64,000 nt of DNA from Acholeplasma equirhinis (GTDB lineage Bacteria > Bacillota_I > Bacilli_A > Acholeplasmatales > Acholeplasmataceae): the NCBI RefSeq assembly GCF_017052655.1, contig NZ_JAFIDC010000001.1:682001-746000 (forward strand), in the 5' to 3' direction. The translations under genes were made by a program, and so were the position numbers. The notes beneath the pieces were generated by a model that saw only the letters and a list, made by a program, of their open reading frames with translations, did not search any database and was not told the origin of the DNA. This document shows positions 15,426-23,981 of the stretch, in pieces. The first letter of the stretch is position 1, and each line of letters begins with the position of its first letter.

Positions 15426-15907
15426 TAAATTTTTTCAACCTCTACTTTTATTAAATCATTGCCTTTGAATATGCAATGGTAGTGGTATTTTTGATCATCA
15501 TATAATACATTATTTAGGAAGTAAGGAATATTATAAGATACACCTAAGTTTCTTTTATCAAGTAACCACTCTGGTTGTTTCCAATCAAGTATACCTTCAT
15601 CAGTAGGTTTAGGCGTATCGAAATTAAAATCATCTGGTAATTCAACAAAAAATAAGTGTAATCCGTTTGAGAAAGCTTTGAAATCATCATTCCAAGTGAC
15701 TATACCTTTATCTTTTACCATAGACTTTGTAACAATAATTCCAGTTTCTTCGATGACTTCTCTTACAATACAGTCAAGTGGATTTTCATCTGCAGAACGT
15801 TTACCGCCTACACCATTCCACATACCCATCCAAGGATCTTTAACGCGATTCATCATTAAGATCTCTTTTCCTCTTTTAATAAATGCTAATGTATATAAAT
15901 ATGACAT
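15425..15907 (-). CDS. Nudix hydrolase (MutT-like)
   Basis: A 160-residue protein with a complete Nudix box, G-x5-E-x7-REVIEETGI, at residues ~36-58 after the GVGGKR segment. These enzymes hydrolyse nucleoside diphosphates linked to another moiety; an 8-oxo-dGTP role is plausible but unproven. First gene of the unit with the anchored protein and the ABC-F factor. The upstream region is the structured noncoding stretch at 15949-16186. Confidence 0.88.
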   Translation of the reverse strand: MSYLYTLAFIKRGKEILMMNRVKDPWMGMWNGVGGKRSADENPLDCIVREVIEETGIIVTKSMVKDKGIVTWNDDFKAFSNGLHLFFVELPDDFNFDTPKPTDEGILDWKQPEWLLDKRNLGVSYNIPYFLNNVLYDDQKYHYHCIFKGNDLIKVEVEKI

Positions 15908-15950
15908 ATGAATACCTTCTTACCCAAAACATTATAACATTATATAAAAG

Positions 15951-16032
15951 AAAATAGAGTTTTATCTACTACTAAAGATGTAAAATGCGCTAATTTTTAC
16001 AAATTTAGATAACAACCATAAAACTCTATTTT
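15951..16032. repeat. 15-bp perfect inverted repeat with 52-nt loop
   Basis: Left arm 15951-15965 (AAAATAGAGTTTTAT) and right arm 16018-16032 are exact reverse complements. It lies in the 319-bp gene-free stretch between the Nudix gene and the small peptide gene. It has no clean T-run on either strand, so a simple terminator is not the obvious reading. Confidence 0.7.
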
Positions 16033-16087
16033 TCTAAAGTAACCTCAAAAGTATTGGATTAGGGAGAATACACAATACATGAGGTAT

Positions 16088-16112
16088 GTCTTGAAGGGGA
16101 GAGCTTCAAGAC
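16088..16112. repeat. 9-bp hairpin GTCTTGAAG-loop-CTTCAAGAC
   Basis: Perfect stem with the 7-nt loop GGGAGAG on the plus strand. No T-run follows, so it is not an intrinsic terminator. It is part of the structured stretch between the Nudix and peptide genes. Confidence 0.65.
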
Positions 16113-16146
16113 GAGATTAAATTATTTGATACTTAACTTGATAGTG

Positions 16147-16186
16147 ATCGCTTTTCGCGGGTTAAAAAGAACCCGTTTAAAACGAT
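16147..16186. repeat. two-part hairpin downstream of the peptide gene
   Basis: Inner stem CGGGTT/AACCCG (16158-16175) and outer stem ATCG-TTTT/AAAACGAT with one bulged base form one long hairpin. It would lie in the 3' untranslated part of the leftward peptide transcript. No clear T-run follows on the minus strand. Confidence 0.6.
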
Positions 16187-16226
16187 TTCAAATTACAAAA
16201 TTAGGTGGTATAATAAAACCAGCGAA

Positions 16227-16397
16227 TTATGGGTTTACTGGTCCAGCAGGCGGAACCATATCAGGATCTAAAAAATCCTTAAAGTCAACTGTAGTAGCTT
16301 CACCTTTTTCAGCGAAACTCTTAGCAGTTTGATAAGTTCCTGATACTAGGAAAGCTGCCATTACGATTAATACTACGATAGAAAATAATTTTTTCAT
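16227..16397 (-). CDS. small secreted peptide precursor, candidate pheromone of the adjacent regulator
   Basis: A 56-residue gene too short for routine calling. It has a typical export signal (MKKLFSIVVLIVMAAFLVSG) with a possible signal-peptidase site after AKSFA, leaving ~27 residues that end DPDMVPPAGPVNP. GAGGTGA precedes the ATG at 16395-16397. It is transcribed divergently from the HTH-TPR regulator at 16483, with a perfect 16-bp palindrome between them beside the presumed -35. Size, export signal, short polar tail and pairing are those of PapR/NprX/Phr-type signal precursors. The longer frame on the other strand (16126-16332) is antisense to it and lacks support. That it is a pheromone is inference. 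Confidence 0.72.
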   Translation of the reverse strand: MKKLFSIVVLIVMAAFLVSGTYQTAKSFAEKGEATTVDFKDFLDPDMVPPAGPVNP

Positions 16398-16418
16398 CTT
16401 CAATCACCTCATGCCTAT

Positions 16419-16447
16419 ATTTTACAAAATAATCAAAAGAATGCACA
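16419..16447 (-). promoter_or_regulatory. probable promoter of the peptide gene, weak -35
   Basis: Minus strand TAAAAT (16419-16424) is a fair -10. The -35 position 17 bp upstream (16442-16447) is TGTGCA, far from consensus, and abuts the palindrome, as expected for an activator-dependent promoter. Confidence 0.45.
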
Positions 16448-16462
16448 CGACATATATGTCGT
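16447..16462. promoter_or_regulatory. 16-bp perfect palindrome, candidate operator
   Basis: ACGACATATATGTCGT is its own reverse complement. It lies between the divergent peptide and regulator genes, about 20 bp upstream of the regulator start codon. PlcR boxes are also 16-bp palindromes with an AT-rich centre, though of different sequence. Confidence 0.65.
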
Positions 16463-16482
16463 ATGATGAAAGGAGCTTCGAA

Positions 16483-17415
16483 ATGCTAGTTGACACATCC
16501 AGAGAACTCGCTTTGTTCCTCGAAAAAATGCGCTTTTTACGTGGGATTTCACAAGAAGAATTTACCGAAGGTATCATTTCGAATCGACAATATCAACGAT
16601 ACGTTCGTGGTGAATCACCAATGCCATACCACTTGATTGATTTATTCGCTGAACGATTAAATGTCAGAAAAGAACAATTGCTTTTAGAGTTTGATAACCA
16701 TACTCTAAAAGAGACTATGAATATTATCAACTATTTCCAAGCGGTATCAAATCGTGATATGGATCAAATTAACCACTATAAATCCCTGATTGATCCAGAA
16801 TATATCATTGAACCAGATAACCGTAAAACCTATCAACTTACAAAACTAAATGAGGATTATATTTTAAATAAAATATCACAAGAGCAATATAAACTGGGTT
16901 TACTTAAACTAATTGAATATCCAAAGATATTATCTCAAACTGCCATGTCATATTTTGAAGTTAATGTCCTTTCAAAATTAATTGATTTCGTAAGTACCGA
17001 TGAACAAAACTTGATTGCACAAAAGATCGGTAATTATCTTGAAAATCCTGATTTAATTTGGTCTGGAAATCAGATTGTTACATTTAATGTCCTAATCTTT
17101 AGATTAGCTAGATATTATGGTATTAAAGAAGATTACAAAAGTGTTATTACTTATAGTAATCTTGGCATCAAAATGAATACCCGCTCTAAATCACTTAATA
17201 ATCTCGATTATTACTTCTACTTCTTGGCACTTTCATATTTCAGATTAAATGACCAAGATAAATTCAAAGAAAATTTATATAAATGTTACGGTGCATTAAT
17301 CGCTAATAATAATCAATCTAGAATGCAATTTTTTACTCAAGTTATTGAAAAAGATTTTAAAATTAACTATAAAGAATTTATTATCTCTTATCTAAAAGAT
17401 AAGCCTGGTCTTTAA
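16483..17415 (+). CDS. HTH-TPR transcriptional regulator of RRNPP (PlcR/Rgg) type
   Basis: A 310-residue protein: an XRE-type helix-turn-helix at residues ~8-65 (LRGISQEEFTEGIISNRQYQRYVRGES, then AERLNVRKEQLL), followed by ~240 helical residues with TPR-like periodicity and a clear repeat near YYFYFLALSYFRLNDQDKFKENL. Length and domain order match Rgg, PlcR and PrgX, whose C-terminal repeats bind short re-imported peptides and switch DNA binding. The ATG at 16483 is chosen for its AAAGGAG site; an in-frame ATG at 16411 has none. It is divergent from the secreted-peptide gene and ends in a strong terminator. Family membership is well supported by architecture; ligand and targets are inferred. 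Confidence 0.82.
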   Translation: MLVDTSRELALFLEKMRFLRGISQEEFTEGIISNRQYQRYVRGESPMPYHLIDLFAERLNVRKEQLLLEFDNHTLKETMNIINYFQAVSNRDMDQINHYKSLIDPEYIIEPDNRKTYQLTKLNEDYILNKISQEQYKLGLLKLIEYPKILSQTAMSYFEVNVLSKLIDFVSTDEQNLIAQKIGNYLENPDLIWSGNQIVTFNVLIFRLARYYGIKEDYKSVITYSNLGIKMNTRSKSLNNLDYYFYFLALSYFRLNDQDKFKENLYKCYGALIANNNQSRMQFFTQVIEKDFKINYKEFIISYLKDKPGL

Positions 17416-17433
17416 AAAACCAGGCTTTTTTTA
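17401..17433 (+). terminator. intrinsic terminator of the RRNPP-type regulator gene
   Basis: Stem AAGCCTGGT/ACCAGGCTT followed by seven T residues on the plus strand; the regulator stop codon is in the loop. Confidence 0.9.
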
Positions 17434-18063
17434 TTCCTTATTTACAGCTTTTTCCAAAAGATTTTTTAGATAAATTAAACCCAAAGTAAAGACCGCTATT
17501 ACTGGAAGTAATATGACAAGACAAAATACTAAGACATCAAGTAATGATTTACCCGGTAAAGATGGATCCATAAATCCATACGGATACCAACCAGTAAATG
17601 GCCCTTGAATTAATATCACTGTAAAGTAAATAACTGGTAAAACGAGTGATACCCAAAAGTGTTTCAATTTAATACCTGGTGTAACCAGTAAAAAATAGAA
17701 TATAGGGTAAAGTATTGGATTAAATGTATGAACAACATGTCCGTTAAAATCCATTACATCGTCACCTTTTACGATAAAGTGATAAATCAACCCCGTCATC
17801 AAAATTGCAACCAAACCAGCAACTGCTAAGTATTTAAACCAGTTTTTATCTTTGAATCCCGCTAAATATAACACCAAGATGACAAAAATTAATATATTTG
17901 AAATGTTCGTAAACATTCTAAAGCGCTCAAAAACTTCTAGGAAGTATTCGTTGAAAAACATTTGAATAACACCATATAGGTGTACCAATCCAACGAAACC
18001 GGCTATTGATAGGCGTGCTTTATCATTTTCTCTCAACTTGGTGACGAAACTAGAAACTATCAT
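17431..18063 (-). CDS. Pr6Pr-like integral membrane protein
   Basis: A 210-residue protein with about six hydrophobic helices. The pattern of helices, the conserved-looking FTNISN segment after helix 2, HTFNPILYPI, and WYPYGFMDP near the last loop resemble the Pr6Pr family of bacterial membrane proteins, whose function is not established. The gene is convergent with the regulator and shares the terminator region at 17401-17433. A TATAAT sits in the short gap behind the start. Confidence 0.7.
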   Translation of the reverse strand: MIVSSFVTKLRENDKARLSIAGFVGLVHLYGVIQMFFNEYFLEVFERFRMFTNISNILIFVILVLYLAGFKDKNWFKYLAVAGLVAILMTGLIYHFIVKGDDVMDFNGHVVHTFNPILYPIFYFLLVTPGIKLKHFWVSLVLPVIYFTVILIQGPFTGWYPYGFMDPSLPGKSLLDVLVFCLVILLPVIAVFTLGLIYLKNLLEKAVNKE

Positions 18064-19765: not shown

Positions 19766-19841
19766 GCACTCTTAGCTCAGCTGGCAGAGCAATTGACTCT
19801 TAATCAATGGGTCGTGGGTTCGAGCCCCACAGAGTGTACCA
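19766..19841 (+). tRNA. tRNA-Lys (anticodon CTT), host of the integrated element
   Basis: A 76-nt cloverleaf: acceptor stem GCACTCT/AGAGTGT (first pair G-U), D-arm AGCTCAGCTGGCAGAGC, anticodon arm ATTGA-CTCTTAA-TCAAT giving anticodon CTT, T-arm GTGGG-TTCGAGC-CCCAC, and an encoded ACCA end. Its 3' half (from 19796) is repeated at 36194-36241, so the 3' half here was most likely supplied by the integrating element. Confidence 0.95.
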
Positions 19842-19843
19842 TC
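19796..19843 (+). repeat. attL: left copy of the 48-bp attachment repeat
   Basis: Matches 36194-36241 at 45 of 48 positions, including 20 identical bases at the start (ACTCTTAATCAATGGGTCGT) and 15 at the end. It spans the anticodon loop to just past the CCA of tRNA-Lys. Confidence 0.9.
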
Positions 19844-19908
19844 TATAATTAGACCTCTTTAGTTTAAGCTAGATTCCAATCTGCTTGTAACTTTAAAATA
19901 CCACATTA

Positions 19909-19950
19909 TGTAGACCAAGTCAAGGATTTTGTATACATTTTGTAGACAAG
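19909..19950 (+). promoter_or_regulatory. direct repeats upstream of the XRE regulator, candidate autoregulatory operator
   Basis: TGTAGACcAAG (19909-19919) and TGTAGACAAG (19941-19950) are spaced 32 bp apart around a TATACA (19932-19937) that could be the -10. The second copy runs into the ribosome site. Confidence 0.45.
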
Positions 19951-19961
19951 GAGCATGCATT

Positions 19962-20216
19962 ATGCTAAAACTTAAAGAGTTTCGTGAAAAAAAAGGACTT
20001 TCTCAAGTCAAACTAGGTGAAATATTAGGACTCTCTAAGCAAACCATCTCAACTTATGAGTTAGGCACGCGAGAGCCTAATATTGAAACACTTAGTAAAA
20101 TTGCTATTGTTTTAGATGTAACAATAGATGAGTTAATCGATTTTAGAAAAATCTACGATCAAGTTCATGAAGAACTTTACTCAAAAGTAAATGAAATAGT
20201 TAAAGAAAATAAGTAA
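19962..20216 (+). CDS. small XRE-family regulator (controller-like or prophage repressor)
   Basis: An 84-residue protein that is almost entirely a lambda-repressor-type helix-turn-helix (residues ~2-60: KEFREKKGLSQVKLGEILGLSKQTISTYELGTREP) plus a short helical tail. AAGGAG precedes the ATG at 19962. It sits directly upstream of the nuclease gene, transcribed the same way but separated from it by a terminator. Its size, lack of a protease or dimerisation domain and position fit the controller (C) proteins of R-M systems; a minimal prophage repressor is the alternative. Confidence 0.82.
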   Translation: MLKLKEFREKKGLSQVKLGEILGLSKQTISTYELGTREPNIETLSKIAIVLDVTIDELIDFRKIYDQVHEELYSKVNEIVKENK

Positions 20217-20228
20217 ATAATATACATT

Positions 20229-20262
20229 AAAGCCACACTTGTTTTTAGGTGTGGTTTTTATT
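20229..20262 (+). terminator. terminator after the XRE regulator
   Basis: Stem AGCCACAC/GTGTGGTT with a T-rich tail on the plus strand, between the regulator and the nuclease gene; partial read-through would set nuclease level. Confidence 0.75.
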
Positions 20263-20311
20263 TATCACACTATAAATACATAGTATTTATAAAGAGGATG
20301 GGATAATTAAT

Positions 20312-21694
20312 TTGAATAAACAAAGTAATTCTTATTTAGTATTATCTTATTACAAAAAACATTGGCCAATGCTAGTTATTAGTCTTTTGGTATTCATACT
20401 ATTAAACTCATCCACAAACATTTCTTATGATACCACTTGGATGAGTGATGTAAATATTTGGTTAACAATTTTATTTTTAGATTTAGTAATTTTTGGTTTT
20501 ATGACTCTCGTAACCTATAAGATAAGGAATGAATACTTACAAAATAGTATAAGTTTAATTATAACCCTGACAATCACTGAAAGTATAAAACTCAGTTTTG
20601 ATTTTTTAAATATTGATTTAATTCAAGTAGGACTGATATTTTCATCATTTGTATTTATTATTGGTATTTTCTTAATGACTCCAGATAAAGCATTAAAAAT
20701 TATTCACAAACAAAATCAAAAGGACAGATATGAAAATCAAAGATTACTGAGTGAACAATCCGATAAATTTCTAGCAGATTTTGCTAATGCATTAGAAAAC
20801 CAATCAATCTTATTCAAAAATAATTCAGTACTATATTCTTTGATTTCCAAACTAAATATTAAAACAAATGTTGAATTACTTGAAGATATTACGAACGAGA
20901 TTACGAAAAGGAAAAATGATAAAATGATCACATATATCAAAAATAATAAATCCATAACAGTTTCAAATATAAAAGTATTAACAGCTGAACAAATTGAAAG
21001 TGCTGTTTTAAGTTTTAATTCAGCAATTAAACAATTGGATCAAAATACCAAACAATTGGAAATCAATATTTTTGAAACCTTAGGATTAAAAAACTTAAGT
21101 GGCTTTGTTGGTGAAGTTTTTGGATCCATGATTTTAAAAGTATCAAATGGACAATTGGTTAAAAATTTAAATCAAGATGGATATCCAGATCTATTACTAC
21201 ACATAACAGATGAACAAAAATCATATTATTCAGGCACATATACAATTAGGGATGGTATTAAAATTGCCAACTCAAAAGAAATTTTCAGTCCATATAAACA
21301 TGGTGGAATTGAAATTAAAGCTAATGTTGGTTCTACACCTCCAGGAACTAATGATATTCCAAAACTTGTTATCGGACAACAACGAATTGATTATATAAAT
21401 ATGTTTGACTGGAAATCACATCATAGGGATACAAACAATCTTATTGGAATAACTTGGGACTTTATTAATTCTTTACCAACTATCACAGCCGTGTTCTATT
21501 CAAATAATCTCACCCAAGATGACTGGTCAAAAATTGTACAACCGCGCGAAGGTGGGGGAAGAACCACAAGTGTTTCACTGATCAAAAAATCAGGACGAAA
21601 GAAAATGTTCAACAATTGGATTGTAGTAATTGATGATGAAAAATATATAAACAAATTCGCCAAACCTCAATGGATTGGCGAACGTGTTAAATGA
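20312..21694 (+). CDS. membrane-anchored PD-(D/E)xK nuclease, probable restriction enzyme
   Basis: A 460-residue protein with an unusual layout: four hydrophobic helices in residues ~18-122, a helical coiled region (~125-255), then a C-terminal domain with PD (P291-D292 in GYPDLLL) and E-x-K (E334-I-K336 in GGIEIKANV), the catalytic pattern of PD-(D/E)xK nucleases. The gene is convergent with a C5-cytosine methyltransferase (2 bp between stops), which makes a type II restriction enzyme the best guess. The N-terminal membrane part is not normal for type II enzymes. The start codon appears to be TTG (20312) with AGAGG rather far upstream, suggesting weak translation. Recognition sequence is unknown. 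Confidence 0.68.
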   Translation: MNKQSNSYLVLSYYKKHWPMLVISLLVFILLNSSTNISYDTTWMSDVNIWLTILFLDLVIFGFMTLVTYKIRNEYLQNSISLIITLTITESIKLSFDFLNIDLIQVGLIFSSFVFIIGIFLMTPDKALKIIHKQNQKDRYENQRLLSEQSDKFLADFANALENQSILFKNNSVLYSLISKLNIKTNVELLEDITNEITKRKNDKMITYIKNNKSITVSNIKVLTAEQIESAVLSFNSAIKQLDQNTKQLEINIFETLGLKNLSGFVGEVFGSMILKVSNGQLVKNLNQDGYPDLLLHITDEQKSYYSGTYTIRDGIKIANSKEIFSPYKHGGIEIKANVGSTPPGTNDIPKLVIGQQRIDYINMFDWKSHHRDTNNLIGITWDFINSLPTITAVFYSNNLTQDDWSKIVQPREGGGRTTSVSLIKKSGRKKMFNNWIVVIDDEKYINKFAKPQWIGERVK

Positions 21695-21696
21695 AC

Positions 21697-22965
21697 TTAA
21701 ATTTTAAGTATATTTTGAAGAATTTTATCAATTAATAGAGGCGGAACACTCTCCCCTATCGTTTCTATAATTAAACTCTCAGATACCATTTCATTTGCAA
21801 TCTCAAATTTATAAGTGTATTGTGATATGGTTTGTAAGATTAATGCTTCATATATCGATAATGTTCTATTTTGTGTTGGATGCACTTTATTATCAGATGA
21901 AACATACGGGAAATTCATAGTTATTGTACTTGCTGGCATATCCCATAACATTCTTTTATACGCGCTTGTGTATCCTGACATTATTCTTAAATCACCTGTT
22001 TTCTTATCTTTGACATATGGTCTAGGTAATAGGTGACCACATTTTTCACAATATAATGGTGTTGTTTTATTAGACTTATAAATTCCCGATTCATCATGTT
22101 TTGCACCATGTAACTTATTTTTTTGGTACATACAATTTGGATTTATACATTGATTGTTAAATGCTGAATCTCCTTCTTTAGTATGCTTTATCCATTCATA
22201 TTTTTTAGGATCCATAACGGAAACTTTGTGAAATACATTATAGTCTTTACGACTATTCTGTCCTTTAATTGCATCTAGTGGTGGTAAATGACCAATAGCA
22301 TCATGTAAAGTAATCCACTTAGACACATCTTCCCTTCTATCAGAATGCGTTGGATTAGGCATGAAAGTTCCATACTTTTTAAAGTATTCGATTGCATCTT
22401 TATTTCGACTCAATATAGTTATAAGTCTTTTACGTATTTGAGGTATTCCATAGTCAGCCGTGTTAACAACTTCAGCCTTCCCAACATAATCTGTCAATTC
22501 TCTAAATATATAATCTACAATCTTAATAGGTTCATCATTTTCATCTAAGATTATTGTATTATCCATGTTAGGAACATTTTCGAATATCACCCAATCTGGT
22601 TTTAGTTCTTTAATAATTTCTATCGTTGGAATTATCAATCTATTTCGTGGATCAAATCTTTCTCTATTACCTAATCTAAATTCAGATAATAATTTCCCCA
22701 TCCCATTTGAAGACATACCTTGACAAGGTGGTGTTGCCATAATCAAAAAGGGATTTTCATCATAATTCATTTTATAGTAATCAATTATATAATCCTTTTT
22801 TTCCCAAATATCACCTTGAATCATATATGATTCGGGGAAATTTTGTTGATACAATTTTGATCTGTTTGGTAATAGTTCATTAGCAATAACAACAGAAATA
22901 TTGTTGTTTCGTAATGCAAGATCTCCTATTCCACTAGAACTAAATAAACTTATCGCTTTTTTCAT
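21697..22965 (-). CDS. DNA (cytosine-5) methyltransferase with zinc-ribbon-like insert
   Basis: A 422-residue C5 methyltransferase: motif I LFSSSGIGDLAL, motif IV TPPCQG (catalytic Cys81), motif VI FENVPNM (Glu129-Asn-Val), motif VIII IPQIRKR and a C-terminal motif X-like GESVPPLL. Between motif VIII and the C-terminus, residues ~270-318 contain a CxxxxC and a YCEKCG pair that look like a zinc ribbon inside the target-recognition region. It should protect the element's target site from the convergent nuclease. GTGAGGT precedes the ATG and an extended -10 lies ~20 bp upstream, giving strong independent expression, as expected when modification must precede restriction. Confidence 0.92.
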   Translation of the reverse strand: MKKAISLFSSSGIGDLALRNNNISVVIANELLPNRSKLYQQNFPESYMIQGDIWEKKDYIIDYYKMNYDENPFLIMATPPCQGMSSNGMGKLLSEFRLGNRERFDPRNRLIIPTIEIIKELKPDWVIFENVPNMDNTIILDENDEPIKIVDYIFRELTDYVGKAEVVNTADYGIPQIRKRLITILSRNKDAIEYFKKYGTFMPNPTHSDRREDVSKWITLHDAIGHLPPLDAIKGQNSRKDYNVFHKVSVMDPKKYEWIKHTKEGDSAFNNQCINPNCMYQKNKLHGAKHDESGIYKSNKTTPLYCEKCGHLLPRPYVKDKKTGDLRIMSGYTSAYKRMLWDMPASTITMNFPYVSSDNKVHPTQNRTLSIYEALILQTISQYTYKFEIANEMVSESLIIETIGESVPPLLIDKILQNILKI

Positions 22966-22983
22966 AAATACCTCACTTTAAAC

Positions 22984-22992
22984 ATTATAACA
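22984..22992 (-). promoter_or_regulatory. extended -10 promoter of the methyltransferase gene
   Basis: Minus strand reads TGTTATAAT (TGnTATAAT) about 20 bp before the start codon. Confidence 0.6.
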
Positions 22993-23010
22993 TTTGACTA
23001 AATATTTAAT

Positions 23011-23024
23011 CATAAATATTGTTA
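23011..23024 (-). repeat. 14-bp element upstream of the methyltransferase, copy 1
   Basis: TAACAATATTTATG on the minus strand; identical to 23968-23981 upstream of the recombinase gene. Shared operator or recombinase arm site are both possible. Confidence 0.5.
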
Positions 23025-23028
23025 TTTT

Positions 23029-23919
23029 TTAGTCTTTTTTTGAATTATACAGAGGAAGTATATATGATTTTTCATCATAAACTTCCTTAGCTTGCTCTTC
23101 TGAGTATTCAACATAGACTTGTGTCATCTTGATATCAGAATGCCCTAGAATCGTTTGAATCATCTTTAAATCACCACTTGTAACTTTTGCTAAGTCAGTG
23201 GCCATAGTCTTTCTAAATCTTCTTGAATTAACATTAATTTTAAGCTTATCACGGACTTTTCTATTAAAATTTTTTATGTCATCTTTAGATAACCTACGAT
23301 CTCTTATATTATTCCAAAACAACCATGTATATTGTTTATTATTTTTGATTAAATCCTTAATGATATTATCTTGATGTTTATTAAAATAAACATATCGTGG
23401 CTTACCACTTTTTGTTTTGGTTAACAATATTGTTCTATGGATCAAATCAATATTCTTAATTTCAATATCTAGCAATTCACCTATACGACAACCGGTAGCA
23501 TATAGCAAATGAACTACACCACGATAAACTAGTGAATTATCACTTTTATCCAGTGAATTAAAGTACTTAAATATTCTCACTAGTTCATCTTGATAATAAG
23601 GCTTAACATGTTGCACATCTTTTCTTAACCCTTTATTTAATAAAAAGGGATGACTCTCAAATCTGAAGTATCTTAGAATAGCCTTTAAAAAAGATAAATG
23701 CTTATTGATTGATGCATTCTTTTGTGATGTATTATTCTTAAAATAATTAACCATCAATCGATAACTTTCATACTTGAGATCATCCACTGTAATTATTGCT
23801 AAAGTATCAAAACAGTTTTTCAATGCTCTATAAAAAGCATATTCACCTTTTGTTGTTTCTTTAGCTTTGATTCCAACGTGATCCTGGATATACTTTAAAA
23901 TCATTGTTTCTAATATCAT
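23029..23919 (-). CDS. tyrosine recombinase (integrase) of the element
   Basis: A 296-residue phage-type integrase: N-terminal SAM-like DNA-binding region (~10-105), then a catalytic domain with Arg in ATGCRIGELL, the Lys-bearing beta hairpin TKSGKPRYVYF, Arg of SRRFRKTMATDL, His of ILGHSDIKMTQ and nucleophile Tyr in QVYVEYS. The first His of the usual HxxR box is Arg here (RRFR). I start at the ATG 23917-23919, which has AAGGGTG upstream; a longer frame begins at 23970 without a ribosome site. It is the obvious candidate to catalyse integration at tRNA-Lys. Confidence 0.9.
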   Translation of the reverse strand: MILETMILKYIQDHVGIKAKETTKGEYAFYRALKNCFDTLAIITVDDLKYESYRLMVNYFKNNTSQKNASINKHLSFLKAILRYFRFESHPFLLNKGLRKDVQHVKPYYQDELVRIFKYFNSLDKSDNSLVYRGVVHLLYATGCRIGELLDIEIKNIDLIHRTILLTKTKSGKPRYVYFNKHQDNIIKDLIKNNKQYTWLFWNNIRDRRLSKDDIKNFNRKVRDKLKINVNSRRFRKTMATDLAKVTSGDLKMIQTILGHSDIKMTQVYVEYSEEQAKEVYDEKSYILPLYNSKKD

Positions 23920-23967
23920 CTTTTCTTCACCCTTTGATTTTTTTGCGAAATTCCCAAATGTAAACAA

Positions 23968-23981
23968 CATAAATATTGTTA
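23968..23981 (-). repeat. 14-bp element upstream of the recombinase, copy 2
   Basis: TAACAATATTTATG on the minus strand, identical to 23011-23024. Confidence 0.5.

Follow-up and report, generated by a model that had tools for sequence, protein, structure and literature searches.

In the PlcR-PapR system of the Bacillus cereus group, papR lies downstream of plcR and in the same direction, while in many rgg-shp pairs of the streptococci the small-peptide gene is divergent from the regulator. The prgX/prgQ locus of the enterococcal plasmid pCF10 has overlapping antisense transcripts, and RNA is part of its circuit. The agr RNAIII of Staphylococcus aureus, a transcript under quorum control, codes for a small peptide and has hairpins whose C-rich loops can pair with Shine-Dalgarno sites. 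To our knowledge, the RRNPP systems catalogued so far are in Firmicutes with cell walls. A search of the literature for RRNPP together with mollicutes, Tenericutes or Acholeplasma found no earlier RRNPP report in mollicutes, and the terms 'RRNPP' and 'Acholeplasma' occurred together in one paper only, which reviews enterococcal biofilm. As far as their main texts go, three large RRNPP surveys (PMC10075063, PMC9765709 and PMC12700828) name no mollicute. A sequence-only reading of the DNA studied here had known of no described RRNPP system in wall-less bacteria, and the searchable literature likewise gave none.

The window, i.e. the whole stretch of 64,000 nucleotides of Acholeplasma equirhinis DNA that was analysed, had been read as carrying a 310-residue HTH plus TPR regulator divergent from a 56-codon gene of secreted type, and both open reading frames are indeed present. 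The propeptide gene (16227-16397, minus strand) has 56 codons, and homologous divergent genes exist in all seven congeners. Its translation, MKKLFSIVVLIVMAAFLVSGTYQTAKSFAEKGEATTVDFKDFLDPDMVPPAGPVNP, runs from a lysine-rich start through a hydrophobic core to a hydrophilic tail, with a signal-type N-terminus and the candidate mature region VDFKDFLDPDMVPPAGPVNP. The regulator, or receptor, gene (16483-17415, plus strand) encodes 310 aa with an HTH and a five-TPR-type helical domain. The two start codons are 85 bp apart and divergent, and each open reading frame has a Shine-Dalgarno sequence, GAGGTGA before the ATG of the propeptide and AAAGGAG before the start of the regulator. A terminator-like hairpin of the type aagcctggtc...gaccaggctttttt can be read 3' of the regulator (17402-17437, plus strand). 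Elsewhere in the window, at 19766-23970, a tRNA-Lys precedes a small XRE regulator, a 460-aa ORF and ORFs that by eye resemble a DNA cytosine methyltransferase and an integrase, possibly an island at the tRNA-Lys.

The pair shares with PlcR-PapR an HTH plus five-TPR receptor, a short propeptide of secreted type with a C-terminal signal and a palindrome as predicted operator, but the Acholeplasma propeptide gene is divergent, the pheromone and operator are different and the circuit appears to have a single target. The divergent arrangement is that of many rgg-shp pairs. The leaders differ from those of SHP and ComS, which are without a classical cleavable signal peptide, whereas the Acholeplasma leaders look like Sec signals; SHP is exported by PptAB (PMC10075063). 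Export signals of the propeptides were scored from hydrophobicity and charge, without SignalP.

For a receptor, the RRNPP/RRNPPA criterion is an N-terminal HTH followed by at least five, often degenerate, TPR motifs in a protein of 250-500 aa. The regulator meets it with 310 aa, a Pfam HTH_3 match at the N-terminus (E=0.00095, just below the curated cut-off), an all-helical model and full-length matches to known receptors. Single-sequence searches were weak: no PDB match was obtained, and the low matches to IncFII_repA, phage_RstR and CbiN, which came from searches of Pfam, NCBIfam and PDB, were rejected as misleading. Only the family profile and the structure model were informative. When the profile of 33 family members was compared with PDB, PlcR came first (E=1.2e-4, profile positions 8-253) and Rgg second (3.7e-4), and the sequence relationship to known RRNPP members is met through this profile; Pfam RNPP_C was matched by only 1 of the 33 members. 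By its fold and gene content the Acholeplasma system is placed with the RRNPP receptors of the five-TPR clan, in which PMC12700828 has PlcR, TprA, PrgX, TraA, ComR and Rgg.

A regulator without TPR structure in models would have counted against the sequence-only reading. The AlphaFold2 model built from the family alignment has a mean pLDDT of 90.5, and the part beyond the HTH is predicted to be all-helical and of TPR type. The best Foldseek matches of the model are PlcR, ComR, Rgg and PrgX, so that the receptor fold is shared with the Bacillus, streptococcal and pCF10 systems. Matches with E<0.001 comprise these four and NrpR, the sole other being an uncharacterised Listeria regulator (4ryk). 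In VIA-align, the top match is PlcR with PapR (2qfc; Z 17.0, 275 residues, 14% identity over aligned residues), and PlcR is thus the best match both by structure and by PDB profile. The rmsd of the structural matches is large, 8-10 A, presumably because the domain arrangement differs; the model therefore shows the family fold and not a ligand state.

Of 61 related genomes, 29 have a regulator homolog, and every one of the eight Acholeplasma genomes is among these 29. The family-profile search, run on 395 genomes of the class, returned regulator relatives in 63. A mechanical scan for a small ORF with a Shine-Dalgarno sequence, a positive start and a hydrophobic stretch was run near the regulator relatives, and a divergent upstream small ORF of secreted type was found beside 70 of 107 distinct relatives, with a propeptide-regulator distance of nearly always 78-115 bp among these 70. 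The pair occurs in 8/8 Acholeplasma genomes. The absence of a neighbouring secreted peptide beside homologous regulators would have spoken against the pairing, and in the genus this was never the case. The same criteria were applied to 202 non-regulator genes from sampled Acholeplasma stretches, none of which had such an ORF at 60-150 bp and only one within 350 bp. Small ORFs abound in AT-rich genomes, and the peptide gene could in principle be an unexpressed ORF lying by chance beside an ordinary XRE regulator, but the control scan (0/202 against 70/107) and the almost constant spacing refute this, and we give it practically no credence. The pairing is far above chance. No small ORF passed the strict criteria for the remaining 37 of the 107 regulators, among which are cases at the end of a contig, beside a second regulator or past the distance limit. 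A mobile-element origin was rejected, as the phage and plasmid collections gave no match.

Some relatives have further features around the pair. At L014 (2884-3774), three identical tandem propeptide genes lie beside two divergent receptors, an amplification at the level of the gene and not of the unit, and L073 has two propeptide genes. About 30 pairs outside Acholeplasma (L020-L022, L064-L072, L079, L087 and L090-L109) have a conserved gene of about 91 aa (KKEF..EL.G.IGTI.TYTRNPFM.GYT...) directly 3' of the propeptide; no Pfam family matched it above cut-off, and it is likely an output or partner of those systems. One group of pairs (L078, L080, L082 and L084-L086) has in its intergenic region, at the Shine-Dalgarno sequence of the propeptide, a long inverted repeat that is rich in AT (CTAATATATAAATATA...TATATTTATATATTAG) and is possibly a translational switch.

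The RRNPP/RRNPPA criterion for a propeptide is an adjacent gene of 10-100 aa with an export signal, and the adjacency criterion is met here; the propeptides of some relatives are longer than 100 aa owing to tandem units. The tail is a tandem array in 16 of the 69 complete propeptides, with 2-10 copies each. Among these arrays, that of L011 repeats LDFDNCGEPDWVR six times, that of L070 has nine units of IDFDDRDEPEFIN and that of L086 ten units of LDFDDEDFPEFIN. The largest array has 10 copies of a 13-mer. At L009 (2521-2790), 100 N interrupt the repeat array and the true number of units is undetermined. The tandem units of the relatives align with the window tail VDFKDFLDPDMVPPAGPVNP, of which the window propeptide has one unit. 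We take the tail as the signal because 16 relatives encode it as 2-10 tandem copies, and these repeats, together with the core kept in paralogs (below), satisfy the criterion of a signal in the C-terminal part of the propeptide, with the mature form unknown. Several pheromone copies per propeptide are also seen in phage Rap/Phr systems, where tandem Phr propeptides have 1-4 copies (PMC11343458), whereas the relatives here reach 10 contiguous copies and the window propeptide has one.

The genome of the window holds two further pairs, L036 (C1:382953-383849) and L035 (C1:394741-395637). The two receptors share 300 of 302 residues; the leaders of the two propeptides differ, while the core GFGNSGEPE[AS]FED is kept. 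A kept core and diverged leaders beside near-identical receptors are as expected if the receptor reads the tail. A long repeat-rich leader follows 3' of each pair, without an Rfam match in either case, and leads into a short gene that is alike at both loci. At L036 this gene contains sigma-70 region 4, and similar genes follow L039 and L040. The L036 pair resembles ComR-SigX in preceding a gene of this type.

It had also been suggested that the tail should covary with the TPR region of the regulator. A correlation is present (Mantel r=0.39), but it is equally strong between the tail and the HTH (0.40), so the covariation is not specific evidence and was rejected as a proof of binding.

A bacteriocin or other secreted effector that acts on other cells, with the HTH-TPR protein only its regulator and sensing something else, was also considered. 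The pairs at L017 and L044 adjoin an ORF that by eye resembles a C39-peptidase ABC exporter (SKYIYVKQHDASDCAAACLASISMYYG...), so that the output of some relatives may be of bacteriocin type. The window pair, though, has no gene for export, immunity or modification beside it; the short units in tandem look like those of pheromones, and throughout the genus the locus is a single, fixed pair that has a predicted operator to itself. We consider an effector of this kind improbable at the window locus and keep to the tail as a pheromone.

The machinery that a pheromone would need can be found in the genome of the window, which has one OppA-type gene inside a full opp operon, two M50 (site-2 type) proteases and one signal peptidase I candidate. 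With these genes present, export, trimming and re-import are possible, although not shown.

In the region between the two genes, the predicted operator ACGACATATATGTCGT (16447-16462) is a perfect 16-bp palindrome, 20 bp upstream of the regulator start and centred at about -42 from the inferred start of the peptide gene. The same or a near-identical palindrome is at the same place in 8/8 genus genomes, and related palindromes are at the equivalent place in most other families. The inferred -10 box of the propeptide promoter, TAAAAT (16419-16424, minus strand), is 22 nt from the operator edge and has no good -35 hexamer; the -10 consensus of A. laidlawii is TAWAAT (PMC5138195). By inference from this box, and without binding data, the palindrome is placed like a class II activator site. 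No second site at two or fewer mismatches was found in any of the 8 genus genomes, and at three or fewer mismatches the search returned the locus and at most scattered 3-mismatch sites. The operator thus gave no wider regulon, and the output is most simply the propeptide transcript, since this is the only strong predicted target in Acholeplasma.

A second inferred -10 box, TATAAT (16209-16214, plus strand), lies directly past the propeptide stop on the opposing strand. The motif GTA[ATC]AAT was found on the regulator strand within 110 nt past the stop in 27 of the 70 pairs; the other strand has it in 5, and shuffled sequences give 5.3. In several families with a long propeptide gene the box is still beyond the gene, and it is often absent from pairs with a directly adjoining downstream gene. 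The opposing box is probably the promoter of the regulator, whose transcript would then run antisense through the whole propeptide gene, but there are no transcript data. A regulator transcript that apparently starts past the pheromone gene recalls PrgX-PrgQ, while the Acholeplasma locus differs in being chromosomal and in having no conjugation genes in view. A hydrophobic 56-aa peptide with a conserved opposing -10 box just past its gene could also be read as a type I toxin-antitoxin or antisense module, in which the peptide is a membrane toxin restrained by the opposing antisense transcript, with accessory repression as the role of the HTH protein. We regard this as highly improbable, as it is the hydrophilic tail and not the hydrophobic part that is repeated up to 10 times in relatives, the paralogs with near-identical receptors keep the tail core while their leaders diverge, and the partner has the fold of a PlcR/Rgg-type peptide receptor.

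An RRNPP-type module with PlcR/Rgg-like architecture, together with a proposal for an RNA output, is accordingly the reading that we hold with high, though not complete, confidence. We use the RRNPP-type label with a PlcR-like fold because of the pairing, the tandem tails, the model matches, the palindrome and the Opp, protease and peptidase genes. The gene pair and its conservation, the fold, the predicted operator, the tandem pheromone units and the conserved hairpins described below were computed; no expression, binding or peptidomic data are behind the assignment.

In 8/8 Acholeplasma genomes, about 250-400 noncoding nt separate the propeptide from a conserved NUDIX gene. In the window this region has, on the minus strand, a stem-loop with a CUUUUU loop (16147-16186), with an equivalent that has a CUUUU-type loop in congeners; a second stem-loop, GUCUUGAAG[CUCUCCC]CUUCAAGAC (16088-16112); a third, GUAUUG[UGUAUUCUCCCUAAUC]CAAUAC (16051-16078); and a long terminator-type hairpin, AAAATAGAGTTTTAT...ATAAAACTCTATTTT (15951-16033), which ends the propeptide/RNA unit before the NUDIX gene and also has an equivalent in congeners. 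MAFFT alignment of the 3' hairpins misaligned the stems, and for this reason shuffles were used, along with stems that were defined manually, beginning at the loop and working outward. Strict CUCUCCC-type hairpins number 14 in the 8 genus regions compared with 0.09 in dinucleotide shuffles (maximum 3, 300 sets). On either strand of the whole 64-kb window there are only three, two of which are stem-loops of this region. The loop CUCUCCC is kept in 8/8 genomes while the stems change completely, with two to four base-pair types among species at the stem positions, all canonical. The region thereby fulfils, for an RNA that would work like RNAIII, the criterion of a structure with conserved unpaired C-rich loops, its transcription not being shown. 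No Rfam match was obtained for 15850-16500 with E up to 1, and among the pairs examined the hairpin RNA is confined to Acholeplasma. The 3' region of the peptide gene is a candidate for a regulatory RNA output. By analogy, a peptide-encoding transcript with hairpins of C-rich loops resembles agr RNAIII, but there is no homology and no Rfam match, the system upstream is RRNPP and not a histidine kinase, and the function of the Acholeplasma RNA is untested.

The Shine-Dalgarno sequence GGGAGAG is complementary to the loops, and GGDEF genes recurred among the few genes with it. Targets were sought in sampled genome stretches, not in whole genomes. In a wider set, at least 6 loop-complementary bases in the Shine-Dalgarno region were found in 12 of 44 GGDEF genes, as against 15 of the 365 genes of other kinds (p=2.9e-6). 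When the genes from which the test arose are left out, 9 of 41 remain (p=2e-4), and clustering of related genes leaves p=0.013, so that the association is a lead and not a result. Among the 128 purine 7-mers, GGGGAGA is the most enriched in the GGDEF Shine-Dalgarno sequences, and it is exactly complementary to the loop in the window. It may be that the pair is RRNPP-type and the 3' hairpins are only a stabilising UTR or a run of terminators, with the real output at an unrecognised weaker operator elsewhere. To this we give slightly less than an even chance: transcription of the 3' region is not shown and the GGDEF link weakens after clustering, but the loop outlives wholly changed stems in all eight genomes, no second operator exists at up to two mismatches in them, and the best GGDEF 7-mer complements the window loop exactly. 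The fuller proposal, in which an RRNPP circuit acts directly on its own pheromone transcript alone and this transcript doubles as an RNA that blocks translation of c-di-GMP synthase mRNAs through two CUCUCCC loops, is tentative and, taken as a whole, rather unlikely.

In the mechanism that we propose, export, processing, re-import, binding, activation and the action and targets of the RNA are all inferred. After export of the propeptide through Sec, cleavage by signal peptidase, and perhaps also by a site-2 or extracellular protease, would free a signal from the tail DFKD...GPVNP at the C-terminus. The signal would re-enter the cell through the Opp permease and be bound there by the HTH regulator of the divergent gene, in its TPR domain. 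At the palindrome in the shared promoter region, the liganded regulator would drive the propeptide transcript in a positive feedback. Beyond the propeptide the transcript would run into the hairpin RNA, whose two exposed CUCUCCC loops could block Shine-Dalgarno sites of other mRNAs, those of diguanylate cyclases (GGDEF) being the candidates. Transcription of the regulator itself would probably start past the propeptide gene, and the two transcripts would then be antisense to each other. The locus differs from the known systems in its host lineage, in its layout, which is divergent, with one predicted operator and probably an opposing promoter, in having relatives with as many as ten pheromone units and in the putative 3' RNA.

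Since the module is in every Acholeplasma genome examined, peptide quorum sensing has probably survived in a wall-less lineage. The tandem propeptides of the relatives define the pheromone by sequence alone, and A. laidlawii offers a small, cultivable model with a circuit of one operator. What would set the system apart is the RNA output: should it prove real, agr-RNAIII would have a counterpart that is governed by a cytosolic receptor, and through it c-di-GMP in mollicutes could be tied to cell density.
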